DNA from: Sneathiella marina
GTDB taxonomy: Bacteria; Pseudomonadota; Alphaproteobacteria; Sneathiellales; Sneathiellaceae
Assembly: GCF_023746535.1 (NCBI RefSeq)
Contig: NZ_CP098747.1
Span: forward strand, 2,254,501 to 2,318,500
Reading direction: 5' to 3'
Length of the DNA stretch: 64,000 nucleotides
This document shows positions 7,671 through 51,082 of this stretch, piece by piece (the first letter of the stretch is position 1; every line of letters starts with the position of its first letter). The notes beneath the pieces were generated by a model. It ran no database searches and was not told where the DNA came from. It saw only the letters and a list, made by a program, of their open reading frames with translations. Both the position numbers and the translations under genes were made by a program.

Positions 7671-8372
7671 ATGCTTGAAGTCAATTCCATAAATACATTC
7701 TATGGCCAAAGTCAGGTGCTGTTCGGCATGTCCTTGAAAATAGCCGCCGGGGAAGTGGTGACCCTGATGGGCCGCAACGGCATGGGAAAAACCACCACAG
7801 TGCGTTCCATTATGGGGCTGACCGCAGCCCAATCCGGTGAGATCCTGTTTGAAGGAACCAACATCACGGCACTGCCTTCCTATAAGATCGCCAGACTTGG
7901 CATCGGTCTTGTCCCGGAGGGGCGCCTGATTTCCCCCAATTTGGATGTTTTGGAAAATCTGGTGGCAACTGCCTATGTCGGCCGCGATGGAAAAGGTAAC
8001 TGGAGCCTCGATCGGGTTCTCGAGCTATTTCCCCGGCTTCGCGAACGTAAAACCAGCATGGGAAATCAGTTGTCGGGGGGTGAACAGCAAATGCTGGCCA
8101 TTGCCCGCGCCCTAATGACCAACCCGGAATTGCTCATTCTCGATGAGGCCACTGAAGGATTAGCCCCGCTAATCCGTGAAGAAATTTGGACCTGCCTCGC
8201 CGGTCTGAAACAAGAAGGCCAGTCAATTCTGGTGATTGACAAGAACGTTCAGGCTCTCAGTAAATTCGCGGATCGCCACTATATCATGGAAAAAGGACAA
8301 GTGGTTTGGGAAGGCAACTCAACCTCTCTAGTTGAGGATGATGAAGTAAAATACAAGTATTTAGGGATTTAA
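7671..8372 (+). CDS. Liv-type ABC transporter ATP-binding protein, LivF family
   Basis: A 233-residue ATPase. Walker A GRNGMGKTT is at 34-42, the LivF-typical GLVPEGR near 81-87, signature LSGGEQQML near 125-133, and Walker B LLILDEATEGLAP. The H-loop position reads VIDKNV, as in many LivF proteins, where Lys replaces the usual His. It begins two bases after LivG's stop and closes the importer; no strong terminator follows. Confidence 0.9.
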   Translation: MLEVNSINTFYGQSQVLFGMSLKIAAGEVVTLMGRNGMGKTTTVRSIMGLTAAQSGEILFEGTNITALPSYKIARLGIGLVPEGRLISPNLDVLENLVATAYVGRDGKGNWSLDRVLELFPRLRERKTSMGNQLSGGEQQMLAIARALMTNPELLILDEATEGLAPLIREEIWTCLAGLKQEGQSILVIDKNVQALSKFADRHYIMEKGQVVWEGNSTSLVEDDEVKYKYLGI

Positions 8373-8520
8373 CGGCATTTTTGGGTAAATTTTCAGCCAA
8401 AGTGACCTAATTTTTTATTACTTTGATCGGCTTTAATATCTTGGTAACCAATTTGTGGTTTCTTGCAGCAATAGAGTTCAGAAGTGTAACAAAACCTTAA
8501 TCTTTTTAGGAAACAAGCGC

Positions 8521-9564
8521 GTGGCACAAAGTAACTCATTTAAGACTATAGAGGCCAATGCCAAAAACACCATGGCATTACTCAAAGATCAGAGTATTCG
8601 TCAACTCCCAAGGAATTATACTATTTGGTATGAGTACCTGACGGAATCTAATCCTGATCTGGTGCGCCGCGTCAACGAACTCATGGAAACGGATGGGAAA
8701 TTCACGGATAAAATCGCCAGTGAAATCTATCGCGACTTTTTCACGTTTGAAAAAGAAAACAAAGCCATTCAGGAATCAAACCGCATTGTTCAGAAATCGA
8801 TGGACAGCGTAATGGTGAACCTCAACGCAACTACTGGCGATTTTTCCAATTATGGCGAACAGCTTTCCGATTTTGCTACCAAGGCGGACAGCCTCAGTGT
8901 CACTGAGTTGCAAGATGTTATTGGTGAAATTGTCAGTCAAACTTCAACCATGTCCGACAATGCAATGAAGTTGAATGACAGTCTGGATAGCGCGTCGAAG
9001 GAAATATCCAATTTACGCAAGTTATTGGCTGAAGTGCAGGAAGAGGCATTAACTGATGGTTTAACAGGTATCGCAAATCGGAAGAGCTTTGACGCTGCGT
9101 TGGCGAAAGCCACTTCTATGTCTCTTGAGACAAACACACCGACTTGCCTTCTTCTTTCTGATATTGATCATTTTAAGAAATTCAATGATACCCACGGGCA
9201 CCCCTTTGGGGATCAGGTCTTAAAACTGGTTGCCAAAACACTGACCGGCGGCATTGGCAGGACGGCAACAGCAGCTCGGTATGGAGGCGAAGAATTCGGG
9301 ATAATCCTGCCCAATACAGAATTGGATGAAGCCGTCGACCTCGCCAATGACTTACGAACCGCCGTTTCTTCGAAAAAGCTGGTAAAACGGTCAACTGGAG
9401 AAGATGTCGGAAAAATCACCATGTCATTCGGGGTGGCGCTCTATACCCCCCGCGAAGACGCCTTAACATATATTAATCGTGCAGACGAAGCGCTTTACGC
9501 GGCTAAAAATGCTGGCCGCAACCAAGTGAAACACTTGCAGAGCGGCCTGGCGCAGACAGGCTAA
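8521..9564 (+). CDS. GGDEF-domain diguanylate cyclase
   Basis: A soluble 347-residue protein. The GTG at 8521 is preferred because AGGAA lies about eight bases upstream; a longer reading starts at 8455. Residues 1-165 form a helical, probably coiled-coil N-terminal region with no recognised sensor. The GGDEF domain follows: metal-binding SDIDHFKKFNDTHGH near 211-225 and active-site GGEEF near 256-260, so it should make cyclic di-GMP from two GTP. No RxxD inhibitory site is present five residues before GGEEF. It has no transmembrane segment and no EAL domain. It lies between the Liv-type importer and paa genes with its own terminator. Confidence 0.9.
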   Translation: MAQSNSFKTIEANAKNTMALLKDQSIRQLPRNYTIWYEYLTESNPDLVRRVNELMETDGKFTDKIASEIYRDFFTFEKENKAIQESNRIVQKSMDSVMVNLNATTGDFSNYGEQLSDFATKADSLSVTELQDVIGEIVSQTSTMSDNAMKLNDSLDSASKEISNLRKLLAEVQEEALTDGLTGIANRKSFDAALAKATSMSLETNTPTCLLLSDIDHFKKFNDTHGHPFGDQVLKLVAKTLTGGIGRTATAARYGGEEFGIILPNTELDEAVDLANDLRTAVSSKKLVKRSTGEDVGKITMSFGVALYTPREDALTYINRADEALYAAKNAGRNQVKHLQSGLAQTG

Positions 9565-37728: not shown

Positions 37729-38205
37729 TTGCTAAAAACCATCAGTCTTTTTCTTGTGCTAATGGCAGTTTGGCTACTTTTATCCGGACATTATACACCT
37801 CTGATTACGGGTTTTGGTGTTGCATCATGCTTGCTCACAGCGTTGATTGCCCGCCGCATGGATGTTGTTGACCATGAAGGCCATCCGCTTCATCTCGGCC
37901 CGAAAATCGTAATGTATTGGGGCTGGCTGCTTGTTGAAATTTTCAAGGCAAACCTGGATGTTGCCAAATGTGTCCTTTTCCCCGGGACATATCTCAACCC
38001 CTCCATGTTTACAACGAAGGTGACGCAAACTTCTGATCTCGGCAAAGTAATTTATGCAAACTCCATCACGCTGACACCCGGAACCGTTACTGTCGATTTG
38101 GATGGTGACGAAGTAACAGTCCACGCTTTGACGCAAACGTCCGCCGAGGGCGTAAAAAATGGTGATATGGATCGCAGGGTCACGAAAGTCATGGGGGAAG
38201 CATGA
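37729..38205 (+). CDS. mrpE: Mrp-type cation/proton antiporter subunit E
   Basis: A 158-residue protein with two or three N-terminal helices and the family block MYWGWLLVEIFKANLDVAKCVLFP near 62-85. ITLTPGTVTVDLDGDEVTVHALTQ is typical of the C-terminal domain. TTG start with AGGGGA about 11 bases upstream. It starts the nine-gene antiporter operon; E is normally needed for assembly, and the next gene overlaps by four bases. Confidence 0.88.
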   Translation: MLKTISLFLVLMAVWLLLSGHYTPLITGFGVASCLLTALIARRMDVVDHEGHPLHLGPKIVMYWGWLLVEIFKANLDVAKCVLFPGTYLNPSMFTTKVTQTSDLGKVIYANSITLTPGTVTVDLDGDEVTVHALTQTSAEGVKNGDMDRRVTKVMGEA

Positions 38206-38489
38206 TCATTTACGCCATAACGGCAATCGCAATTCTTGTGAGTATTGCTTTCGCACTCAGCCGCGCGATCCTTGGGCCTACTTCCTACGATCGCATTTTA
38301 TCAGTCAATGCAATCGGGACAAAAACCGTTTTGCTTATTGGTGTTGTCGGTTTTCTCGCCGGGAGGCCGGATTTTCTGGATTTGGCGCTCGTTTACTCCC
38401 TAGTAAATTTCATTGGCACTCTCGCGGTTTTGAAATATTTCAAATTCGGTACCTTGCGTGGCCGGCTATCCAAGTCTGAGGATTCATGA
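38202..38489 (+). CDS. mrpF: Mrp-type antiporter subunit F
   Basis: A 95-residue three-helix protein. RAILGPTSYDRILSVNAIGTKTVLL near 22-46 and RPDFLDLALVYSLVNFIGTLAVLKYF are MrpF family blocks. Start and stop overlap the flanking genes by four bases (ATGA), indicating translational coupling. Confidence 0.87.
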   Translation: MIIYAITAIAILVSIAFALSRAILGPTSYDRILSVNAIGTKTVLLIGVVGFLAGRPDFLDLALVYSLVNFIGTLAVLKYFKFGTLRGRLSKSEDS

Positions 38490-38845
38490 TGATTGATATT
38501 GTCCTGGATATTGCGACTTGGGTATTGCTGATTGCCGGAAGCCTTCTTCTTCTGGTTACCGGTCTTGGATTACTGCGTCTTCCGGATCTGTATACGCGTG
38601 TCCATGCCGGCGGCATGGCAGATACTCTGGCCACATTTTTGATATTTGTTGGCTTGTCTTTTCAAAGCGGCTTTTCACTCGTTACGGTAAAACTCCTCAT
38701 GGTCATTGTCTTCGTGTTTTTTACCAGTCCAACTGCATCCTACGCCCTCGCCCATGCCAGCTTCGTAGCAGGTTTGAAACCCAAACTAGACGGTTTCAAG
38801 GCAAGTAAAGAGGATCCGACAGAAGGGAAAAATAGCGATGCTTGA
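38486..38845 (+). CDS. mrpG: Mrp-type antiporter subunit G
   Basis: A 119-residue three-helix protein with the MrpG signature GLLRLPDLYTRVHAGGMADTL near 27-47, then FFTSPTASYALAHASFVAGLKP. A charged tail follows. The last codon precedes the fused B-type gene with no intervening base. Confidence 0.88.
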   Translation: MMIDIVLDIATWVLLIAGSLLLLVTGLGLLRLPDLYTRVHAGGMADTLATFLIFVGLSFQSGFSLVTVKLLMVIVFVFFTSPTASYALAHASFVAGLKPKLDGFKASKEDPTEGKNSDA

Positions 38846-39892
38846 TTGGGGGGAATGGTCATAGCTCAGTTTATTGATATATTTTTGATGTTTCTTCTGG
38901 TTGCCGGGGCTCTTACGGTCCTGACTGTGCGCAATCTGTTTGTGGCAACAATGATGCTTGGTATTGTCAGTTTTGTCATGGCACTTGTCTTTATCAGTCT
39001 CGACGCTGTTGATGTGGCCTTCACGGAGGCAGCCGTGGGTGCGGGTATCAGTACGGTTCTATACATTGGGACATTGGCCCTGGTCGGATCCGAGGAAAAA
39101 GCGGGTATAAAGATCGCACCTGCACCAATGGCGATTTGTCTGGCGGTTGGTGCCGTGCTCGTTTACGCAACTTATCAAATGCCCAGTTATGGCAATGCGG
39201 ACAACCCGGTCCATACCCACGTCGCACCGCGCTACATTCAGGTCAGTCCGACCGAAATTGGCGTTCCGAATATGGTAACGTCCGTGCTGTCCAGTTATCG
39301 GGGCTTTGATACATTTGGCGAAACAACCGTTGTCTTTACGGCGGGCATTGGCGTTCTGCTCATCCTCAGTCAGCGTCGGCGCCGGAAACCCGGCGAGGAA
39401 GAAGAAAAGCCCGCGGCGAGAAACGGCCATGGCCGCAATTTACTGGGGATCGGGAGTGATCATGATCTTATCCCTCATGTAATCGCTAAATTATTGATTC
39501 CATTCATTCTTTTATTCGCACTATATGTCCAGTTCCATGGAGATTATGGCCCGGGCGGCGGATTTCAGGCAGGCGTAATATTCGCGGCAGGGTTCATTCT
39601 ATATGCCCTCATATTCGGACTGCAGCTTGCTCAGCGTGTCTTAAGTCAGAATGCCGTTCTGTATTTGATTGCTTTTGGAGTTCTGCTGTATGGGGGTGTC
39701 GGTGTGGTCGGTATTCTCCTGGGTGGTAATTTCCTTGACTACAACGTCCTGTCAAGCGATCCGGTCAGTGGCCAGCATTTGGGAATTCTGCTCATTGAAC
39801 TAGGTGTCGGCATTACGGTTGCCGCTGCCATGCTGGCGATTTATTACGCGTTTGTCGGACGTGCAGATCCTGTCTCAAAGCTGCCGGATTAG
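38846..39892 (+). CDS. mrpB: Mrp antiporter fusion: DUF4040 + MbhE-like + subunit B
   Basis: A 348-residue membrane protein made of three parts. Residues 1-85 are DUF4040 (TEAAVGAGISTVLYIGTLAL). About 130-175 are MbhE-like (VTSVLSSYRGFDTFGETTVVFTAG). About 205-348 are MrpB (KLLIPFILLFALYVQFHGDY, then GPGGGFQAGVIFAAGF). The first two parts are normally the C-terminal end of MrpA, so here MrpA is split and its end is joined to MrpB. The start is TTG at 38846 or ATG at 38855; neither has an ideally placed ribosome-binding site. Confidence 0.85.
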   Translation: MGGMVIAQFIDIFLMFLLVAGALTVLTVRNLFVATMMLGIVSFVMALVFISLDAVDVAFTEAAVGAGISTVLYIGTLALVGSEEKAGIKIAPAPMAICLAVGAVLVYATYQMPSYGNADNPVHTHVAPRYIQVSPTEIGVPNMVTSVLSSYRGFDTFGETTVVFTAGIGVLLILSQRRRRKPGEEEEKPAARNGHGRNLLGIGSDHDLIPHVIAKLLIPFILLFALYVQFHGDYGPGGGFQAGVIFAAGFILYALIFGLQLAQRVLSQNAVLYLIAFGVLLYGGVGVVGILLGGNFLDYNVLSSDPVSGQHLGILLIELGVGITVAAAMLAIYYAFVGRADPVSKLPD

Positions 39893-39901
39893 GGACCAGA
39901 A

Positions 39902-40273
39902 ATGTATTTTAGTTACTTTAATTACTGGATTTGCATCATTTTGCTGATGATCGGTTTATACACGGTCATGAGCAGAAGCAATCTGGTCAAAAAACTCATT
40001 GGGCTCTCTTTGTTCCAGATTTCCGTTTTCCTGTTTTATATCAGCATGGGGAAAATCAGTGGCGGCACGGCTCCTATCGTGGTTGAAGCGTTGGAAGGGG
40101 CGCCTGAACCCGTATACTCCAATCCCCTGCCCCATGTTCTAATCCTGACGGCCATCGTGGTTGGCGTCGCCACCACGGCACTTGGATTATCTCTCGTTGT
40201 TCGGATTAAGGAAGCATTCGGGACGATTGATGAAGATGAAATCCTCGAACTTGAGAGTGAGGAAGATAAGTAG
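39902..40273 (+). CDS. mrpC: Mrp-type antiporter subunit C
   Basis: A 123-residue NuoK-like subunit with three helices. NLVKKLIGLSLFQISVFLFYI near residue 27 and ALEGAPEPVYSNPLPHVLILTAIVVGVATTALGLSL are MrpC signatures. GGGA lies 10 bases before the ATG. It is followed after one base by a D-type gene. Confidence 0.88.
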   Translation: MYFSYFNYWICIILLMIGLYTVMSRSNLVKKLIGLSLFQISVFLFYISMGKISGGTAPIVVEALEGAPEPVYSNPLPHVLILTAIVVGVATTALGLSLVVRIKEAFGTIDEDEILELESEEDK

Positions 40274-40274
40274 A

Positions 40275-41771
40275 ATGGTTTTCTTGTCGACCCACCTCCC
40301 CATCCTCACAGTGGTCATTCCCCTGCTTTCCGCAGCCGTCTGCGCCTTGCTAAAAGGCAAAAACCTGCCCTGGGCACTGACCACGATCATCAGTGCCATT
40401 TCATTCCTGATGAGCATTCAACTCCTCCTGGAAGTTAATGTATCCGGCCCTATTTCTTATGAACTGGGCAGCTGGGCGCCGCCTTGGGGTATCGAGTATC
40501 TTGTTGACCCGTTAAACGCTTTTTTGTTGCTGATCATCAGCGGTATCAGTACCGGTGTCCTGCTTTATGCGCGGGACAGTATCGCCAGTGAAGTTCCCGA
40601 AAAACAACAGGGCTTGTTTTATGCGGCGTATTTGCTGGCCCTCACGGGAATGCTGGGCATTTGTATTACTGGCGACGCGTTTAACATATTTGTTTTCCTC
40701 GAGATTATGTCATTGTCGTCTTACGTGCTTATCGCTGCCGGTGCTCCGCAGGATAAACGCGCCCTGACGGCCGCCTATCAATATCTGATCATCGGTACCG
40801 TGGGCGCGACATTTTTCCTCATCGGTGTCGGCTTGCTCTATGTGATGACCGGTACTTTGAACCTCGCGGATATTGCCTCGCGGTTTTCCGAAATCGAGGA
40901 TACCCGCCCCATCCGGGCCGCCGTCGGCTTCCTGGTCGTTGGAATTGTCATCAAACTGGCCCTTTTCCCGTTCCATGTCTGGCTGCCCAATGGCTATACC
41001 TATGCACCAAGCGTCGTTACGGCGTTTTTTGCAGGCACGGCGACCAAGGTTTCCGTCTATTTGTTGATCCGGTTCATTTATACGGTATTCGGCGGCGATT
41101 ACAGTTTCGGTATCATTGATCTGGCTGACATTCTGTTGCCGCTTGCGGTCATCGGATTTCTTTCCATGTCTGCCGTGGCCATATTCCAGAAAAACATCAA
41201 ACGCCTGCTTGCCTATTCCAGCGTTGCCCAGTTGGGCTATATGGTTCTGGGTATTTCCCTGGCCAGTGAAAGCGGATTGACAGCATCGCTGGTTCATGTG
41301 TTCAACCATGCTATCGTTAAAACCGGCCTCTTCCTGTCCGTCGGCTGTATGTTCTATGCGGTCGGTTCCGTTTACTTGAAGGATCTTGAAGGTATTGGCC
41401 AGCGAATGCCGATTACGACTTTCGGCTTTGTACTGGGCGGGCTTGGCCTGATTGGCGTGCCGCTGACGCCCGGGTTCATCAGCAAATGGTATCTTATTCT
41501 GGCGGCGCTGGAAAAAGGCTCCTATCTCGGATACGCCCTGGTGACCGCTGTATTGGTTTCAAGTTTACTGGCGGTCATCTATATCTGGCGCGTGGTCGAA
41601 GTCGCCTATTTCCGATCGCCACCGGAGGGGACGGAAAAAGCAGAAGCTCCGTTATCCATGCTGGTTCCATGCTGGATTTTTATTCTGGGCAGCTTTTATT
41701 TCGGCATCGACACCACCATTAACGTGGGCTTTGCCGAAGCGGCGACCAGCTTTCTTCTAGGGGGATCGTGA
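40275..41771 (+). CDS. mrpD: Mrp antiporter subunit D, first NuoL/M/N-like subunit
   Basis: A 498-residue proton-channel-like subunit of about fourteen helices. The ATG at 40275 is chosen over an upstream start that would overlap mrpC. The helix-5 Glu (FVFLEIMSLSS) and helix-7 Lys (IVIKLALFPFHVWLPNGY) of the antiporter family are both present, so it should be able to move ions. It is adjacent to two more such genes. Confidence 0.87.
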   Translation: MVFLSTHLPILTVVIPLLSAAVCALLKGKNLPWALTTIISAISFLMSIQLLLEVNVSGPISYELGSWAPPWGIEYLVDPLNAFLLLIISGISTGVLLYARDSIASEVPEKQQGLFYAAYLLALTGMLGICITGDAFNIFVFLEIMSLSSYVLIAAGAPQDKRALTAAYQYLIIGTVGATFFLIGVGLLYVMTGTLNLADIASRFSEIEDTRPIRAAVGFLVVGIVIKLALFPFHVWLPNGYTYAPSVVTAFFAGTATKVSVYLLIRFIYTVFGGDYSFGIIDLADILLPLAVIGFLSMSAVAIFQKNIKRLLAYSSVAQLGYMVLGISLASESGLTASLVHVFNHAIVKTGLFLSVGCMFYAVGSVYLKDLEGIGQRMPITTFGFVLGGLGLIGVPLTPGFISKWYLILAALEKGSYLGYALVTAVLVSSLLAVIYIWRVVEVAYFRSPPEGTEKAEAPLSMLVPCWIFILGSFYFGIDTTINVGFAEAATSFLLGGS

Positions 41772-41772
41772 A

Positions 41773-43281
41773 ATGATATTTTCCCTGGAAACCCATGTTG
41801 CCCTTTCCCTGCTCATCCCCCTCATCGGCGCCGTGGGCATTGCACTAGCCCATTCAGTTCCCAATGTTAGAGAAACCGTCACCCTTGTGACATCTGCGGT
41901 CCTTTGTGCCAATGTTTTCAGCATCTTGCCGTCGATTATGAACGGTGTGGAACCTGTCGTGACAATGGCGGAAATGTTGCCGGGGATTGCTCTGGTTTTG
42001 AAAGTCGAACCGCTCGGTATGACATTTGCCGCTGTTGCCTCCACTTTATGGATCATAAATTCGATCTATTCAATCGGGTATATGCGCGGCAATAACGAAG
42101 CCAAACAAACCCGGTTCTATATCTGTTTTGCCATCGCCATCGCCGCGACCATGGGGGTGGCTTTTTCCGGCAACCTGATTACATTATTCGTGTTCTATGA
42201 AGTCCTGACGCTGTCCACTTATCCCCTTGTTACCCATAAAGGGAATGCAGATGCATTGCGGGGCGGCCGTATTTACCTGGGAATTTTGATCAGTACCTCG
42301 ATTGGCCTGTTTCTGCCGGCCATCATCTGGGTTTACAGCCTGACGGGAACGATCGATTTCGTCAAAGGGGGTATATTGCAAGGTCATGCAAGCGCCGGTG
42401 TCACGGGCGTTCTGCTGTTCCTCTTCATGTATGGGATCGGCAAGGCCGCGCTGATGCCGATCCACCGATGGCTTCCGGCGGCCATGGTGGCGCCGACACC
42501 TGTTAGCGCGTTGCTGCATGCCGTCGCCGTGGTCAAGGCCGGCGTATTCTCCGTCCTGAAAGTCGTTATTTATGTGTTCGGGATCGATTTCCTGGCAACC
42601 ACCGGCTCGGCGGAATGGCTCACCTGGGTTGCCGCCTATACGTTGGTTGCTGCCTCAGTGGTGGCGCTGACCAAAGACAATCTCAAGGCACGGCTTGCCT
42701 ATTCGACCATTAGCCAGCTGGCTTATGTGGTTCTTGCCGCGTCCATGGCCTCTTCCATGGCGGTCGCCGGCGGCGCCTTGCAAATTGTCATGCATGCGTT
42801 TGGCAAGATTACCTTGTTCTTCTGCGCCGGGGCGATTTATACCGCCGTGCATAAAACAGAAGTCAGTGATATGCGCGGGCTCGGACGGCAAATGCCCATC
42901 ACCTTCATGGCCTTCCTGATTGGATCTTTGAGTATCATCGGCCTGCCGCCGCTGGGCGGAAGCTGGAGTAAATTTTACCTGATGGTCGGTGCCGCCGAAA
43001 CCGGCGAATTATACATCATGGCCGTGCTTTTGATCAGCTCGCTTCTCAACATTGCCTACCTGTTACCGATTGTCGCCCGCGGGTTCTTTTACCCGCCCTT
43101 GGGACAGACGGACCCGCCGGTTGCTGTCGGGTATGAAGAATCGAGCTTTTCCTGGTCACAAATCAAGGAAGCACCTTTATTCTGTGTGCTACCGCCCGTT
43201 ATAACGGCACTGATGTGCTTTGTTTTATTTTTCCTCGCGGATCCGATCATGAATTTGATCGAACCCATATTGACACCATAG
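41773..43281 (+). CDS. second NuoL/M/N-like antiporter subunit
   Basis: A 502-residue paralogue with the same plan. Helix-5 Glu is in FVFYEVLTLSTYPLV and helix-7 Lys in YGIGKAALMPIHRWLPAAMVAP. The C-terminal third lacks DUF4040, which is present in the fused gene at 38846. It may take the place of MrpA's N-terminal half. It starts two bases after the mrpD stop. Confidence 0.85.
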   Translation: MIFSLETHVALSLLIPLIGAVGIALAHSVPNVRETVTLVTSAVLCANVFSILPSIMNGVEPVVTMAEMLPGIALVLKVEPLGMTFAAVASTLWIINSIYSIGYMRGNNEAKQTRFYICFAIAIAATMGVAFSGNLITLFVFYEVLTLSTYPLVTHKGNADALRGGRIYLGILISTSIGLFLPAIIWVYSLTGTIDFVKGGILQGHASAGVTGVLLFLFMYGIGKAALMPIHRWLPAAMVAPTPVSALLHAVAVVKAGVFSVLKVVIYVFGIDFLATTGSAEWLTWVAAYTLVAASVVALTKDNLKARLAYSTISQLAYVVLAASMASSMAVAGGALQIVMHAFGKITLFFCAGAIYTAVHKTEVSDMRGLGRQMPITFMAFLIGSLSIIGLPPLGGSWSKFYLMVGAAETGELYIMAVLLISSLLNIAYLLPIVARGFFYPPLGQTDPPVAVGYEESSFSWSQIKEAPLFCVLPPVITALMCFVLFFLADPIMNLIEPILTP

Positions 43282-43292
43282 GGGCAGAACAG

Positions 43293-43565
43293 ATGTCGAA
43301 CCCTGATGACGAAAAGAAATACTGGCTGGATGACCCGAAAAATCATGACAAGGTTTTTTACGGCGTCCTGGTGATAGCCGTTCTGGTCTCCATTCCCGAT
43401 GTCCTATCCCTGCTCAATATCGTCTACCACAAGCATGTGGAATTCGAGTTTGAGAATATTTTCGAATTCTACTCATTGTATGGTCTGGTGTGTTACGTGG
43501 GATTGGTCCTGATTGCCAAAAAGCTGCGTGTCCTCCTCAAGCGCGATGAGGATTATTATGATTGA
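43293..43565 (+). CDS. small two-helix membrane protein within the Mrp operon
   Basis: A 90-residue protein I do not recognise. A hydrophilic N-terminus (many Asp, Lys) is followed by two hydrophobic segments, near 25-45 and 60-78, and an acidic end DEDYYD. GGGGCAGA precedes the ATG. Its stop lies inside the start of the third antiporter gene, so the two are probably translated together. An assembly or accessory subunit is plausible but unproved. Confidence 0.75.
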   Translation: MSNPDDEKKYWLDDPKNHDKVFYGVLVIAVLVSIPDVLSLLNIVYHKHVEFEFENIFEFYSLYGLVCYVGLVLIAKKLRVLLKRDEDYYD

Positions 43566-45249
43566 AGGCCTAAATCCCGGTTTCATCCTGATTTTCGGCG
43601 CGCTATTGGTGCCGATCACTTCAGGTGTTGTCCGCTCATTCGTCATCCTGGCTTTACCAGTACTGGCCTTTACGCAGCTCTATTATCTGGGACTTGGTAC
43701 CTGGGGACAGTATGAGTTTTTAGGGCTTTCCATCGAAATGACGCGGATCGATCCGCTGTCCCGGATATTCGGGACCATTTTCTGTATCGCCTCTTTCATT
43801 GGCATGATCTATTCCCTGCATGTCAAAGACACCATTCAGCATTTCGTCGCGCTCATTTATATGGGCTCTGCCCTGGGTGCCGTTTTTGCCGGTGATCTGG
43901 TTACCCTGTTCATATTTTGGGAACTGACCGCCATTTCCTCCGTCTTCCTGATCTGGGCAAGCCGAACCGAACGCGCCTACAAGGCCGGCATGCGGTATCT
44001 GATCATTCAGGTGACCTCGGGTGTCATCTTGCTTGGCGGCCTCATCCTCTATTACCAGGATACCGGCTCGATCGCCTTTGAGTATCTCGGTCTCAGCAGC
44101 ATTGCAACGGGCCTTATCCTCGTTGCTTTCGGCATCAAGGCCTGCTTTCCGTTTCTGCATAACTGGATGCAGGATGCCTATCCGGAAGCAACGGTTACCG
44201 GAACGGTTATCCTGTCCGCCTTTACAACCAAGCTGGCGATATATGCCTTGGCCCGCGCCTATCCCGGCACGGATATTCTGATCCCCATTGGCGGCGTGAT
44301 GACCGTGTTCCCGATATTTTATGCGGTTCTGGAAAACGACCTGCGCCGGGTTCTGGCCTATTCACTGAATAACCAGCTCGGCTTTATGGTCGTCGGTGTC
44401 GGCATTGGGACGGAACTGTCCATTAACGGAACAGCCGCCCATGCCTTTGCCCATATCATGTATAAAAGCCTGTTGTTCATGAGCATGGGGGCGGTCCTTT
44501 TCCGCACAGGGACCATCAAGGCATCAGAACTTGGCGGGCTGTATAAATCCATGCCGGTTACAATGGTGTTCTGTATTATCGGTGCCATGTCGATCGCAGC
44601 TTTTCCGCTCACCGGCGGCTTTGTCTCGAAAGCCATGATCCAGTCCGCCGCCGGCGATGCCGGTATGCTCATCATCTGGCTGGTCATGTTGTTTGCAAGT
44701 GCCGGTGTCATGGATCATTCGGGCATCAAGGTGCCCTATTTCACCTTCTTCGCCCATGACAGTGGTATCCGGGTAAAAGAAGCCCCCATGAATATGCTGC
44801 TTGCCATGGGCATTGCGGCGTTTTTCTGTATCGCCATTGGTGTCTTCCCGGACGCGCTCTATATCCTGCTACCCTATGAGCCGACATATCAACCTTATAC
44901 GACAAGCCATGTGGTGACATCGCTCCAACTCCTGATGTTTGCCGTTCTCGCCTTTGCATTATTGATGCGCTACAAAATATATCCGCCGGAGCTGCGATCA
45001 ACCAATCTCGATTTCGACTGGTTCTATCGAAAGCCGTTGAAAGCTCTGGCCTTGGCCATTGGCCGGCTTATTGCCATCATCTGGACCTGGGTCACCGATA
45101 CCGGCACTGACTATGCGCGCAAAGTCATTACGGCAACGGCAGATACACATGGCTATGGGAAATTTATGGCAAAAACATCCTCATCAAGCGCTGCGGTCAC
45201 GCTGATTGTCGCCTTGCTGGGATTTATTGTCGTATTTCTGTATCGCTGA
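43558..45249 (+). CDS. third NuoL/M/N-like antiporter subunit
   Basis: A 563-residue membrane protein with helix-5 Glu (LFIFWELTAISSVFL) and helix-7 Lys (AFGIKACFPFLHNWMQDAYPE), plus an extra C-terminal extension with helices and a hydrophilic linker after residue 470. ATG at 43558 with GAGGA upstream; 43546 is an alternative. This is the third potentially ion-moving subunit, one more than in a standard Mrp complex. It ends the operon and converges with the next gene. Confidence 0.85.
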   Translation: MIEGLNPGFILIFGALLVPITSGVVRSFVILALPVLAFTQLYYLGLGTWGQYEFLGLSIEMTRIDPLSRIFGTIFCIASFIGMIYSLHVKDTIQHFVALIYMGSALGAVFAGDLVTLFIFWELTAISSVFLIWASRTERAYKAGMRYLIIQVTSGVILLGGLILYYQDTGSIAFEYLGLSSIATGLILVAFGIKACFPFLHNWMQDAYPEATVTGTVILSAFTTKLAIYALARAYPGTDILIPIGGVMTVFPIFYAVLENDLRRVLAYSLNNQLGFMVVGVGIGTELSINGTAAHAFAHIMYKSLLFMSMGAVLFRTGTIKASELGGLYKSMPVTMVFCIIGAMSIAAFPLTGGFVSKAMIQSAAGDAGMLIIWLVMLFASAGVMDHSGIKVPYFTFFAHDSGIRVKEAPMNMLLAMGIAAFFCIAIGVFPDALYILLPYEPTYQPYTTSHVVTSLQLLMFAVLAFALLMRYKIYPPELRSTNLDFDWFYRKPLKALALAIGRLIAIIWTWVTDTGTDYARKVITATADTHGYGKFMAKTSSSSAAVTLIVALLGFIVVFLYR

Positions 45250-45270: not shown

Positions 45271-45870
45271 TCAGGATTTTGCAGACACCCGCTTTGTCGG
45301 CGCCCATTTCGTCACGGAGCGGCCATCGGCGGTGAACCGTACTTCCTGCCCGGCATTCGGCGCGGCTTCAAGGTTTGAGCTTTTGGTCGCAACTTCGGAG
45401 CCGTCGGGGAATTTGTTAAAGGCAATTTCATTCCGCGACAAGGGTCCGCCATTTTTATAGGCGCCGGCCATCTCGCCAATTGTAATTTCCGCGTTTCTTC
45501 CCCGGGCGGAGGCCGACTTGAGGGCTGAATCAAAGGACAGGATGAAGTCTAACTCGGTCAGGCTTTTGTCCTGACAGATTTGCCATACGGTATTCAAGGT
45601 CTTTTCAACATCGGCCGACGGTGCCACGGCCGTGCTTAATTCAAATCCATGTTCCAGGGCCAGGAAGGCATCCGGCTCGATGGGGCCCGCTTCTGTTGAT
45701 AGAAAAGTCGCAGGCATTAGTTTCTGTTGCTGATGGGACGCCGCGTGGAGCGCCTGGCAAAGATACAGAAGCTTGATGAGAAACGCAGTTTCCAAAGGAC
45801 GGCCGCTTTCCGCTGCCTTGAGATTAAACCAGTACAGAATATCAAAGGTTGATCTTGTTGCCGGACGCAT
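45271..45870 (-). CDS. protein of unknown function, weak Panacea (DUF4065)-like N-terminus
   Basis: A 199-residue soluble protein. The segment FDILYWFNLKAAESGRPLET, followed by AFLIKLLYLCQALHAA (together about residues 10-45), resembles the start of Panacea/SocA-like domains, but I would not claim it firmly. The ATG at 45870 has GAGG about nine bases upstream. It is convergent with the antiporter operon. If Panacea-like, it could be an antitoxin or chaperone-like protein, but no toxin gene is adjacent. Confidence 0.5.
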   Translation of the reverse strand: MRPATRSTFDILYWFNLKAAESGRPLETAFLIKLLYLCQALHAASHQQQKLMPATFLSTEAGPIEPDAFLALEHGFELSTAVAPSADVEKTLNTVWQICQDKSLTELDFILSFDSALKSASARGRNAEITIGEMAGAYKNGGPLSRNEIAFNKFPDGSEVATKSSNLEAAPNAGQEVRFTADGRSVTKWAPTKRVSAKS

Positions 45871-46021
45871 GCTGAGCCTCACTTCATTTTGAATTGCAAA
45901 CCAATCTACAAATTATTGGTTAAGTGACTATTAACATCCGGACGCGCAGCATATCCATGGGCTGCCCGGTCTTTGGAAGCCATCCGTTGGTCCGTTCACC
46001 ACCATAGCAAGATTTATTTAC

Positions 46022-46607: not shown

Positions 46608-46637
46608 TTGAATAGAGTAGGTTTATCCCAACATAAT
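46608..46637 (+). promoter_or_regulatory. candidate promoter for coxG
   Basis: TTGAAT (46608-46613), 18 bases, CATAAT (46632-46637), 24 bases before the coxG ATG; GGGAGAA follows as ribosome-binding site. Confidence 0.42.
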
Positions 46638-46661
46638 AAAAATTGTTGTCGGGAGAATACT

Positions 46662-47300
46662 ATGCAAATGAACGGCGAAGAATTAATCAGTGCGTCCAGA
46701 GAGCGCGTCTGGGAAGCGCTCAACGATCCTGAAATATTACGACAAGCCATTCCCGGCTGCGAGTCTGTCGAGAAAACAGGAGACGACGCCTTTGCCGCAA
46801 CGGTCAAGGTGAAAATTGGTCCGGTAAAAGCGACCTTTAAAGGAGATGTCACCTTAAGTAACATTGATGCCCCCAATGGCTACACAATTACTGGTGAAGG
46901 TAAAGGGGGAGCTGCCGGCTTCGGTAAGGGGGGCGCCGATATCACGTTGAAGGACGCCGATAACGGCACCCTTCTCGCCTATGACGTAAATGCGTCGGTT
47001 GGCGGGAAGATGGCGCAGATCGGTTCACGGCTCATCGACGGCACCGCCAAGAAGCTGGCCGGTGAGTTTTTTACCAGCTTTAACGAACTGGTCAGTAACG
47101 CAGCCTCCGATGAGGGCGAGGTTCCGGCAACGGCAGCGCCGTCATCAGATCAGTCAGAGGCACCCATCATTGCCGAGGACACCGAAGAAAAAGCGGCGCC
47201 TCAGCAACCAGAGACGCCAAGTCAGGGCTGGATGAAACCATCTATCCTGATTCCGTTGGGCATAGTGGCGGCAATTATCCTCTACTATCTGGCGGGCTGA
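46662..47300 (+). CDS. coxG: CoxG-like SRPBCC protein with C-terminal membrane anchor
   Basis: A 212-residue protein. Residues 1-150 form the CoxG/START-like fold (MQMNGEELISASRERVWEAL; GPVKATFKGDVTLSN), then a Glu/Ala/Pro-rich linker and one hydrophobic helix near residues 188-209. In characterised CO dehydrogenase systems CoxG recruits or anchors the enzyme to the membrane, and the C-terminal helix fits. GGGAGAA precedes the ATG. It is the first cox gene, 161 bases before coxS. Confidence 0.85.
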   Translation: MQMNGEELISASRERVWEALNDPEILRQAIPGCESVEKTGDDAFAATVKVKIGPVKATFKGDVTLSNIDAPNGYTITGEGKGGAAGFGKGGADITLKDADNGTLLAYDVNASVGGKMAQIGSRLIDGTAKKLAGEFFTSFNELVSNAASDEGEVPATAAPSSDQSEAPIIAEDTEEKAAPQQPETPSQGWMKPSILIPLGIVAAIILYYLAG

Positions 47301-47372
47301 TTAAAATCATTTCGCGATTGGGCTTATCAAGCCTTGACGTCGCGTTACATCATGTGGAAACTCTTTTCCATA

Positions 47373-47388
47373 AAGAACGATCGTTCTT
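47373..47388. promoter_or_regulatory. perfect 16-base palindrome upstream of coxS (TetR-operator-like)
   Basis: AAGAACGATCGTTCTT, perfectly symmetrical, lies 74 bases before coxS between a possible -35 (TTTCCA, 47365-47370) and -10 (TTAAAT, 47387-47392). It has the form of TetR-family operators. The 12-base core AACGATCGTTCT recurs at 58019-58030. No TetR gene is in this window. Confidence 0.5.
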
Positions 47389-47461
47389 AAATAAAATTGC
47401 AGGAAGTTCGACCAGCTAACATTTCGGTCGGTCGGGAATTAAACTCAGGGAGGAAGACAAT

Positions 47462-47929
47462 ATGACAACCGTTTCCATGACGGTGAATGGGAAAAACGTA
47501 TCGGCAGATATTGCGCCAAATACACTTCTCGTTCAGTTTATCAGAGACCATCTACGACTGACCGGAACACATGTTGGCTGTGATACCAGCCAGTGTGGCG
47601 CCTGTACGGTCCATGTAAATGGCGACAGCATGAAATCCTGTACAATGCTGGCTGTTCAGGCCGACGGTGCGGATGTCACAACAATCGAGGGGCTTTCCGC
47701 TGGCGGTGAGCTCCATCCGATGCAAGCCTCCTTTAAGGAAAATCACGGCCTGCAATGCGGATTCTGCACACCGGGCATGATCATGAGCGCGGTTGATCTT
47801 GTGAATCGCAACCCTAATCCTTCTGAAGAGACAATCAGATCTGAGCTGGAAGGCAACATATGCCGATGCACCGGATATCACAATATTGTCAAATCGGTTA
47901 AAGCCGCAGCGGATAACATGGGAGGGTGA
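47462..47929 (+). CDS. coxS: form II CO dehydrogenase-like small (iron-sulphur) subunit
   Basis: A 155-residue [2Fe-2S] subunit. The plant-type cluster is bound by Cys in [18 protein letters not shown] and MKSC; the second cluster uses QCGFCTPG and [11 protein letters not shown]. It passes electrons from the molybdenum site to FAD. GGAGGAAGA precedes the ATG. The order S-L-M is that of form II clusters. Confidence 0.92.
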
Positions 47930-47932
47930 ACA

Positions 47933-50281
47933 ATGTCTGTAGAAAATGGTATTGGCGCCTCTGTCAGGCGTAAGGAAGACCAGAGATTTATTACCGGTAA
48001 CGGGAATTATCTCGATGATATGAACCGGGTAGGACAAGCACATGGATATTTCCTGCGCTCGCCCCATGCCCATGCGAAAATCAACAGCATCAATCTGGAT
48101 GCCGCAAAAGCAGCGCCTGGCGTTGTTGATATTTTCGTCGGCGCCGACATGGCCGCGGACGGTATTGGTGGCTTGATTTGCGGTTGGGGTATCACCAGTA
48201 AAGACGGGACCCCTCATAACGCCCCGCCCCATAACAGCATGGCGATTGATGCCGTGCGTCACGTGGGGGACCAGGTTGCTTTTGTTATTGCGGACAGTTT
48301 GCAGCAGGCAAAAGACGCCGCGGAGCTTATTGACGTCGATTATTCCGAATTGCCAGCCGTCACGGATATCTCCAAGGCGTTGGCAGCCGGTGCGCCGCAA
48401 ATTCACGAAGAAGCGCCGGGCAATCAGTGTTATGACTGGGAACTGGGGGACAAAGAGGCTGTTGAGGCCGCCTTTGCCAATGCCCATTCCGTATCGAAAA
48501 TTGATCTCATCAATAACCGGGTTGCACCCAATCCAATGGAACCACGCGCCGCTCTTGGTGAGTTTGATGCGGGCACAGATGAACTGACGCTGTATACGAC
48601 AAGTCAAAATCCGCATGTTGCGCGTTTGATCATGTCAGCCTTCCTGGCCATTGCACCGGAAAACAAGCTTCGCGTCGTTGCCCCGGATGTCGGCGGCGGC
48701 TTTGGCAGCAAGATTTTCGTTTATGCCGAAGAAACAGTCACTGTCTGGGCGGCGAGAAAAATCAACCGCCCGATCAAATGGACGGCTGATCGCTCGGAGG
48801 CCTTCCTGACCGATGCCCATGGACGGGATCATGCGTCACATGGTGAGTTGGCCTTGGATGCGGACGGACATATCCTAGGCTTTAAAGTATCGACCAAAGC
48901 CAATATGGGGGCCTATCTGTCGACCTTTGCCTCTGCTGTTCCGACATATCTTTATGGCACGCTGTTAAACGGGCAATATAAAATACCCTGCATCTATGTT
49001 GAGGTTCAGGCCGGATTTACCAACACGACACCGGTTGATGCCTATCGCGGTGCCGGCCGTCCGGAAGCCACCTATATTGTCGAGCGTATTATTGAAACCG
49101 CCGCGCGCGATCTCAATATGGATCCAACAGAATTCAGGATGAAAAACTTTATCCAGCCTGATGCCTATCCTTACGAGACGCCTGTCATCATGACGTATGA
49201 CAGCGGTGACTATCCGGCTAACATGAATGCCGCCAAGGCATTGATTGACTATGACGGCTTCGCCGCCAGAAAAGCCCAGTCAGAAGCCAATGGCAAGATC
49301 AGGGGCATTGGTTGCGCCGCTTATATTGAAGCCTGTGGTATCGCGCCGTCCGCTGCTGTCGGATCTTTGGGAGCTGGCGTTGGTCTTTGGGAATCTGCCG
49401 AAGTCCGGTTTAATCCCACGGGAAGTGTCACCGTCTTCACGGGTAGTCATAGCCACGGTCAGGGACATGAAACGACATTCGCGCAGATTATCTCTGACAA
49501 ATTGGGGGTTCCGATTGAAAGTGTCGAGGTGGTGCATGGCGATACGGATAAGGTGCCTTTCGGTATGGGAACCTATGGCTCGCGGTCTTTGGCCGTTGGC
49601 GGATCGGCTATTGTCAAAGCTGTTGACAAGATTGTCGAGAAATCCAAGAAAGTCGCCGCTCATCTAATGGAGGCAGCGGTCGAGGATATCGAGCATGAAC
49701 ATGGTGTGTTCTCAGTCGCCGGGACGGATAAGTCCCTAACCATGGGAGAAATTGCCTTCGCCGCATATGTCCCCCATAATTATCCGGCGGACCTTGAACC
49801 CGGCATGGCCGAAAACGCCTTTTACGATCCGCTTAACTTCACCTTCCCGGCCGGTACTCATATTGCCGAAGTGGAAATCGATCCGAATACGGGGGTTGTG
49901 GATATCGTCGATTGGGCCGCGTCCGATGACTTTGGAAACATCATCAACCCGATGATCGTCGAAGGTCAGGTCCATGGCGGTATTGCGCAAGGAATTGGTC
50001 AGGCTCTGCTGGAAGGCGTTGTATATGACGACACCGGACAGCTGGTGACCGGCTCCTACATGGATTACTGCATGCCACGGGCGGATGATTTACCAAACTT
50101 CAAGGTTGATACAACAAGTACACCCTGCCCCAGTAACCCACTCGGAGTTAAAGGATGTGGTGAAGCAGGAGCTATTGCGGCGCCTGCGGCTCTTATGAAC
50201 GCCATAACCAATGCTCTTGGTAAAGACATCGATATGCCTGCGACGCCTGAAAAGGTCTGGCGCGCAGCTCAAAGCAATTAA
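47933..50281 (+). CDS. coxL: form II CO dehydrogenase-like large (molybdenum) subunit
   Basis: A 782-residue molybdenum hydroxylase large subunit. The active-site loop reads AYRGAGR (about residues 369-375), the form II pattern; the CO-oxidising form I enzymes have AYXCSFR with Cys. The catalytic Glu is in [10 protein letters not shown] near residue 742. The cofactor-binding GGGFGSK and [16 protein letters not shown] are present. Form II enzymes have been proposed to oxidise CO slowly or to act on other substrates, so CO is uncertain here. Confidence 0.92.
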
Positions 50282-50296
50282 GAAGGGAAAACTTCA

Positions 50297-51082
50297 ATGT
50301 ACTCTTTCGATTATGAACGCCCTTCTGGGGTAAATGACGCGGCTTCCTCCCTCGGTGAGGATGACAAGTTGCTGGCCGGTGGCCAGACACTGATACCGAC
50401 GTTGAAACTTCGTCTTGCGCAAGTTGGCAAGTTGGTTGATTTGGCAGGTATTGATGAGCTCAAGGGCATTTCCTCCAACGGAAGTGAACTCAGCATTGGT
50501 GCCATGACGACGCATGTTGACGTGGCCTCCTCCGCTGAGGTTAAATCCGGCATTCCGGCTCTCGCCTCCCTCGCCTCCCATATTGGCGACGCGCAAGTGA
50601 GAAACCGGGGAACAATTGGCGGATCAATTTCCAACAATGACCCGGCGGCTGATTATCCATCGGCTCTGGTCGCTCTGGGCGCCACCGTCCATACCAGCAA
50701 GCGCAGCATTTCTGCCGAAGACTTTTTCGTGGATTTGTTTGAAACCGCCTTGGAAGAGGATGAAATCGTTACAAAGGTTTCTTTCCCGATCCCGGAGAAG
50801 GCTGCCTATGCGAAATTCCCGAACCCGGCATCACGCTATGCTCTGGTTGGTGTTTTTGTCGCTAAATCAGCCAATGGCACCAAAGTTGCCGTAACCGGCG
50901 CCGGGCCTTGCGTGTTCCGTCAGTCTGATATGGAAGCCGCTCTGGACTCCGACTTTTCGGCAGGCGCCGTTTCAGGTATAGCAACCGACGCCTCAGGATT
51001 AAACTCGGATATTCATGCGTCTGCGGAATATCGTTCAAACCTGATTTCGGTTATGGCGTCACGGGCTGTCGCCTCAGCCTGA
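50297..51082 (+). CDS. coxM: form II CO dehydrogenase-like medium (FAD) subunit
   Basis: A 261-residue flavin-binding subunit. AGGQTLIP (about residues 31-38) and TIGGSISNNDPAADYPSAL near 110-128 are the FAD-binding blocks of this family. AGAAGGGA is in front of the ATG. It completes the S-L-M enzyme and is followed by a hairpin before coxD. Confidence 0.9.
   Translation: MYSFDYERPSGVNDAASSLGEDDKLLAGGQTLIPTLKLRLAQVGKLVDLAGIDELKGISSNGSELSIGAMTTHVDVASSAEVKSGIPALASLASHIGDAQVRNRGTIGGSISNNDPAADYPSALVALGATVHTSKRSISAEDFFVDLFETALEEDEIVTKVSFPIPEKAAYAKFPNPASRYALVGVFVAKSANGTKVAVTGAGPCVFRQSDMEAALDSDFSAGAVSGIATDASGLNSDIHASAEYRSNLISVMASRAVASA

Follow-up and report, generated by a model that had tools for sequence, protein, structure and literature searches.

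Clusters of mrp genes with an irregular order and more than one mrpD have been named group 3 Mrp (review PMC5703873; Candidatus Nitrospira alkalitolerans, PMC7784846). In Ca. N. alkalitolerans two NuoM/NuoL-like genes follow mrpD, and the mrpFGBCDDAE cluster of Microbacterium TS-1 also has three antiporter-like genes; the group is a catch-all, however, and its cyanobacterial members have another gene order and fewer large subunits. Pairs of MrpD-like subunits have been described elsewhere too: in the green complex I of rhizobia they replace NuoL, and in Ca. Manganitrophaceae a five-pump complex I and an oxidase cluster (Complex_I_3, TO_2) each have two of them, described as nearest to the rhizobial ones (PMC9040806). 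Mrp clusters with three large subunits and the MrpD-like pair of green complex I are thus already known. Here we describe the only Mrp locus in the 4.07 Mb genome of Sneathiella marina, an operon on a 64,000-nucleotide stretch of contig NZ_CP098747.1 (positions 2,254,501 to 2,318,500; hereafter the window), which belongs to group 3 as defined in PMC5703873 by its irregular order and supernumerary mrpD-type genes. We consider it likely that the products of this locus form a single membrane complex, a cation/proton antiporter of Mrp type with three channels in a complex-I-like arm.

Open reading frame (ORF), Pfam and NCBIfam analyses gave the gene order E-F-G-X-C-D1-D2-s-D3, all genes being intact, where X is a DUF4040/MbhE/MnhB fusion, D1 to D3 are antiporter-like subunits and s is a small membrane protein (Table 1). 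The first-pass annotation had listed E, F, G, the fusion, C and three D-type genes; every one of them is in place, but s, between D2 and D3, had been overlooked. The E, F, G, B, C, D and A-type Pfam families of the Mrp (CPA3) set are therefore united in one operon, with MrpA represented by D3 and the DUF4040/MbhE part. The six PF00361 genes of the genome are three Nuo genes and D1, D2 and D3. No full-length single-chain MrpA (NuoL-like plus DUF4040/MbhE) is present: the parts lie on separate genes and D3 stops after transmembrane helix (TM) 16. The earlier description of a split MrpA holds insofar as D3 is MrpA-N/NuoL-like and has TM16 as well as a lateral helix, and the MrpA-C part is found fused to B; that MrpA-C part, however, is of the MBH/MBS type and not that of classical Mrp. 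Like MBH and MBS of Pyrococcus (6cfw, 6u8y), the locus has a DUF4040 motif of the EAAVGAG form and a split MrpA-C, but unlike them it has no NiFe-hydrogenase-like redox module among the neighbouring genes checked, and MBH and MBS retain the MrpF Asp discussed below. Nor does the operon contain a NuoB, C, D, H or I redox or quinone gene; the nuo operon of the genome lies about 70 kb away. Judged by sequence, the E-F-G-(DUF4040/MbhE)-B-C core is MBH/MBS-like; it is accompanied by a small subunit of its own, s, and by three antiporter-like subunits in which no proton-path residue is missing. Equivalogs for the fused B (PRK12507) and the third subunit (PRK12668) already exist in NCBIfam, so these proteins are known to curators.

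When aligned to E. coli NuoL, NuoM and NuoN, D1, D2 and D3 of the window each have the TM5 Glu and the TM7, TM8 and TM12 Lys, which bears out the claim that all three keep the helix-5 Glu and helix-7 Lys. Among relatives, D1 and D2 hardly ever depart from the TM5 Glu and TM7 Lys. The TM8 Lys of D3 is retained in all relatives except one, and its TM7 Lys in most Mrp operons, the latter being Asn in most Nitrospirota copies and in all 17 copies from nuo operons (L103, L117, L118, L129, L130, L132, L139, L140, L147, L152, L156-L158, L160-L163). The phylogeny that had been proposed as a check places D1, D2 and D3 in old, separate clades, D1 pairing with MrpD and D3 with MrpA/NuoL, and rules out D2 or D3 as a recent duplicate of another subunit. 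A third channel subunit is thus present as first suggested, but the supernumerary one is D2, not simply the last gene. In the AlphaFold model of D3, a lateral helix of 50 residues (488-537) is followed by TM16 (543-562); the best Foldseek match is MrpA (7qru_A), and NuoL also scores high. The closest named relatives of D3 among the matches listed are from Sneathiella (84% and 83% identity).

Scanning GTDB species genomes with a D3 alignment recovered more than 80 relatives, of which 80 loci were kept and annotated with hidden Markov models. The complete order E-F-G-(DUF4040/MbhE)-B-C-D1-D2-s-D3 is found in 65 of these loci; another 12 are truncated by a contig end, and the last three (L103, L110 and L050) stand in different surroundings. 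Carriers belong to the Alpha-, Beta- and Gammaproteobacteria, Nitrospirota, Planctomycetota, Gemmatimonadota, Desulfocapsaceae (Desulfobacterota) and Myxococcales (Myxococcota). Because the nine-gene order recurs in 65/80 loci and at least six phyla, its sharing is far beyond chance, and the word rearranged, which had been applied to the operon, is misleading: this order is standard for a large, ancient Mrp type. The DUF4040-B fusion is no special feature of the type; only 13/80 loci have it and most of the others encode DUF4040/MbhE and B as two genes, so that the fusion is incidental. The curated model of the third subunit (PRK12668) scores above its cut-off in 41 of 190 Alphaproteobacteria genomes. 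In one Gemmatimonadota locus (L072, 4081-11686), the whole three-channel Mrp set stands between nuoM and nuoN, just before ATP synthase genes.

The length of the D3 lateral helix indicates how the subunits may be arranged. We counted the residues that separate the conserved FDxxY motif from the last TM, whose start was chosen by hydropathy and on which the measure depends, and sorted the values by context. The distance is 20-22 residues in MrpA of eight two-channel operons, where one subunit is spanned, and 48 (E. coli) or 53 (this genome) in NuoL, which spans two; in D3 it is 77-82 in complex I with M and N (three spanned, n=13) and 104 in complex I with two M (four spanned, n=2), a slope of about 27 residues per spanned subunit. 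D3 of three-channel Mrp operons has a median of 55 residues (46-62, n=82), and the simplest reading is that D3 of the window's complex would span D2 and D1. Since this length fits the spanning of two subunits, the third subunit would belong to the same arm. The proposal of a complex with an extra ion channel is therefore supported by the old separate clades, the synteny across phyla and a D3 lateral helix long enough for D1 plus D2. We infer co-assembly as one arm with the order core-D1-D2-D3: the membrane order would be E/G/F - DUF4040/MbhE/B - C - D1 - D2 - (s) - D3, with D3 at the far end, its lateral helix reaching back across D2 and D1 as that of NuoL does over M and N in complex I, and s presumably linking the D2-D3 end pair. 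Such a complex would carry out electrogenic monovalent cation/H+ exchange. Because the published model of two-channel Mrp gives 2 H+ per Na+ (PMC7419157, PMC9568556), three coupled channels would probably move about 3 H+ per cation, which would give stronger cation extrusion per unit membrane potential.

The small subunit s is predicted by AlphaFold to be a two-helix hairpin (helices 15-40 and 59-82) and has no relative in Pfam, NCBIfam or the PDB, even at loose thresholds. Its conservation across loci, its co-occurrence with D3 and the selection acting on it rule out a chance ORF. Of the 80 related loci, 79 have it, the lone exception being cut at a contig edge. In a few divergent operons (L135, L138) the profile barely recognises s, and in L136 and L162 it recognised none. 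In an even sample of 299 Pseudomonadota genomes, 15 carry s and the same 15 carry D3, the other 284 having neither; these genomes hold 18 s and 17 D3 genes, with s directly upstream of every D3 and the spare s at the end of a short contig. Between Sneathiella species its ratio of nonsynonymous to synonymous polymorphism (pN/pS) is 0.14-0.17, a purifying selection comparable to that on D2 and D3. A single-sequence tblastn search against plasmids returned no match, though Sinorhizobium meliloti carries s, which shows that the protein is too short and diverged for this type of search. In the S. meliloti green complex I operon, the 84-residue hypothetical protein WP_100673255 between the two MrpD-like subunits is an s homologue, to which the s profile gives 66 bits (L117:13754-14008, LMB1 plasmid pB). 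Upregulation of this complex in nitrogen-fixing symbiosis has been reported (PMC7415380), and by homology the complex probably has an unrecognised subunit. A Haloarcula plasmid has the order E-F-G-DUF4040-MnhB-C-D-D-D3 with s absent; the arrangement would thus be older, and s seems to have been added to it in bacteria.

The adjacent genes D2, s and D3 recur together outside Mrp operons. In L103 they occupy the nuoL position (nuoB-D-I-A-C-H-J-K-[D2-s-D3]-M-N), in L050 they stand alone, and among further Nitrospirota loci the cassette occurs in nuo, Mrp and oxidase settings; in G476 all three settings are found within a single genome, with one cassette each. In Nitrospirota loci L154 and L110/L143, D2-s-D3 follows bd-like oxidase-type proteins with cytochrome genes (multihaem cytochromes in L110), and D3 of the oxidase context has almost no lateral helix (tail 35-37 residues). 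All D2 form one clade and all D3 another, irrespective of context, with contexts interleaved, and the MrpD-like pair of the rhizobial complex I operon is D2 and D3 of this family. The S. meliloti complex thus shares with the window a D2 and D3 pair around s; there, however, the cassette replaces NuoL beside NuoM/N and a redox arm, whereas here it is mounted on an Mrp core. Moreover, D3 of nuo operons has Asn for the TM7 Lys while retaining the TM5 Glu and TM8 Lys, whereas D3 of the window has Lys. The distal channel of these cassette-bearing complex I variants may thus work differently.

Compared with canonical Mrp of groups 1 and 2 (6z16, 7qru, 7d3u), the locus has counterparts of A-N, A-C, B, C, D, E, F and G, but it has three instead of two antiporter-like subunits, a split MrpA, the extra subunit s and altered residues on the proposed cation path. 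In two-channel structures this path passes MrpF D35 (B. pseudofirmus D38), MrpA E687 and E780, MrpC His residues and MrpB F41 (PMC7419157, PMC9568556). The MrpF position is Asn in 83 of 89 three-channel loci, Gly or Ser in the rest and Asp in none, whereas it is Asp in 9/9 canonical operons and in all five solved structures, MBH and MBS included. In the MrpA-C part, positions 683 and 687 are Glu and Gly in 89/89 members, placing the Glu one turn away from its position in canonical MrpA (Gln 683/Glu 687 in 8/8), and MBH and MBS share the Glu-683 form. MrpC has Gln at the A. flavithermus H37 position in 92/92; this site is variable in any case, being Ser or Gly in the canonical MrpC of Alphaproteobacteria. 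Of the carboxylates MrpF D35/D38 and MrpA E687 and E780, only E780 is therefore kept (90/90), and D776 (B. pseudofirmus numbering) and MrpB F41 occur in every member sampled. The Haloarcula cluster has the same fingerprint (MrpF Asn, MrpC Gln, TEAAVGAG). A conservative change of the MrpF Asp to Asn has been reported as mild in B. subtilis, so a loss of Na+ transport is not to be concluded; given the altered path, the preferred ion may nonetheless be other than Na+. The different ion ratio or ion choice suggested by the first-pass annotation would have its concrete basis in the MrpF Asp-to-Asn replacement and the altered MrpA-C and MrpC residues. These data also bear on whether the locus encodes an ordinary Na+/H+ Mrp with a silent or structural third channel and the ion and ratio of group 1. 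The conserved second-site residues E780/D776 and MrpB F41 would suit such an antiporter, but with every proton-path residue present in all three subunits of the window, and with MrpF never having Asp and E687 always replaced by Gly in the members sampled, we find it improbable.

A second alternative is that the operon encodes two complexes, E to D1 forming a minimal Mrp/MBH-like exchanger and D2-s-D3 a separate unit that attaches, for example, to complex I or an oxidase. The cassette is indeed a real module, which replaces nuoL, accompanies bd-like oxidases and can be split from the remainder. Yet D3 has a lateral helix long enough for two subunits in the Mrp context and nearly none in the oxidase context, the linkage is kept across phyla, and E to D1 alone would contain a single antiporter subunit; two complexes thus seem quite improbable. 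That the locus is the membrane arm of an unrecognised energy-converting enzyme, with a redox or catalytic partner encoded elsewhere or docking from complex I, is barely plausible, since the MBH/MBS-type core, the placement of the L072 set and the cassette common to complex I and oxidase clusters are outweighed by the lack of a linked redox gene in the window's operon, the absence, except in L072, of nuo genes beside complete Mrp sets with annotated context, and the retention of E, F and G as in antiporters.

Several observations do weigh against a single three-channel complex as we describe it. In genome G477, E to D1 and D2-s-D3 lie on different contigs (L142, L050), as separable halves, and G259 has an additional lone D2-s-D3 (L126). 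Ten Nitrospirota three-channel Mrp operons (L144, L145, L146, L148, L150, L151, L153, L155, L141, L101) exceed the expected helix length, with 80-103 residues; D3 of L159 is also long, and a complex I locus (L163) has 105 residues with a single M seen before the contig end. The lateral-helix ruler is accordingly not accepted as a universal law. In the ten operons, the excess, about 30-45 residues long, follows the lateral helix and precedes the last TM; it is 37% charged, versus 17-21% elsewhere; being so highly charged, this insert is probably soluble and not membrane-lying. Finally, the ratio of about 3 H+ per cation is extrapolated from the two-channel model.

Taken further, the three-channel arm on an MBH-like core lacking the conserved cation-path carboxylate could define a distinct, ancient Mrp class differing in both ion and ratio, in which D2-s-D3 would be an exchangeable end-cap fitted to Mrp, complex I and bd-type oxidases, s an obligate bacterial subunit, and the lateral helix would grow by about 27 residues per subunit crossed; this wider proposal is tentative, and we give it slightly less than an even chance. 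The passages found in the group 3 papers (PMC5703873, PMC7784846), supplementary figures aside, do not mention the small protein or a link to green complex I, and the literature passages searched do not mention s, the equivalence between the end module of Mrp and the MrpD-like pair of green complex I, a ruler common to Mrp and complex I or the MrpF Asn fingerprint. What is apparently new, as far as these passages go, is s, D2-s-D3 as a shared module, the lateral-helix ruler and the altered Na+-path residues. Three-channel Mrp looks like a link from the two-channel antiporter to complex I with its three-channel arm and, as a redox-free stand-alone exchanger, it allows the idea of one proton per added subunit to be tested. 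The shared end-cap and the ruler suggest that such arms were assembled from interchangeable units, and s is a new component for annotators and structural biologists to seek in the S. meliloti green complex I.

Table 1. Genes of the three-channel Mrp locus and adjoining features, with positions in the window.
Feature	Position	Strand	Evidence and remarks
MrpE-type subunit (MNHE)	37729..38205	+	158 residues, TTG start; PF01899 E=4e-30
MrpF-type subunit	38202..38489	+	PF04066 E=3e-17; conserved Asp (A. flavithermus D35, B. pseudofirmus D38) replaced by Asn
MrpG-type subunit (MnhG)	38486..38845	+	PF03334; TIGR01300 above cut-off
DUF4040/MbhD-MbhE-MnhB fusion (MrpA-C part and MrpB)	38846..39892	+	PF13244, PF20501, PF04039; motif TEAAVGAG of MBH/MBS type; NF009161/PRK12507 397 bits (cut-off 272); ATG at 38855 the likelier start
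MrpC/NuoK-type subunit	39902..40273	+	PF00420 E=2e-23; type-invariant Gln
D1, antiporter-like, closest to canonical MrpD	40275..41771	+	PF00361 E=3e-61; tree; residues
D2, second antiporter-like, own clade	41773..43281	+	PF00361 E=4e-54; tree; residues
s, small membrane protein	43293..43565	+	90 residues, two TM helices; AlphaFold; conservation across loci; end overlaps D3 start by 8 bases
D3, third antiporter-like, MrpA-N/NuoL-like	43558..45249	+	NF009310/PRK12668 713 bits (cut-off 564); AlphaFold (pLDDT 83); Foldseek
D2-s-D3 cassette	41773..45249		Adjacent and in order
ORF immediately downstream of D3	45271..45882	-	203 residues; no Pfam match; convergent with D3
CoxG, then CO-dehydrogenase-type small, large and FAD-binding subunits	46608..51082		3' of the Mrp operon; xanthine dehydrogenase family

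Scans for promoters and terminators yielded site numbers no higher than in shuffles. At L150:14248-17259, a DabA-like gene (DUF2309-type, assigned by eye) and another E-F-G set, in reverse orientation, adjoin a three-channel Mrp operon, suggesting a locus that combines bicarbonate and Mrp functions. In the three-channel Mrp operon of L159, D1 and D2 are separated by an inserted NhaD/ArsB-like transporter gene (7835-9205, also assigned by eye).

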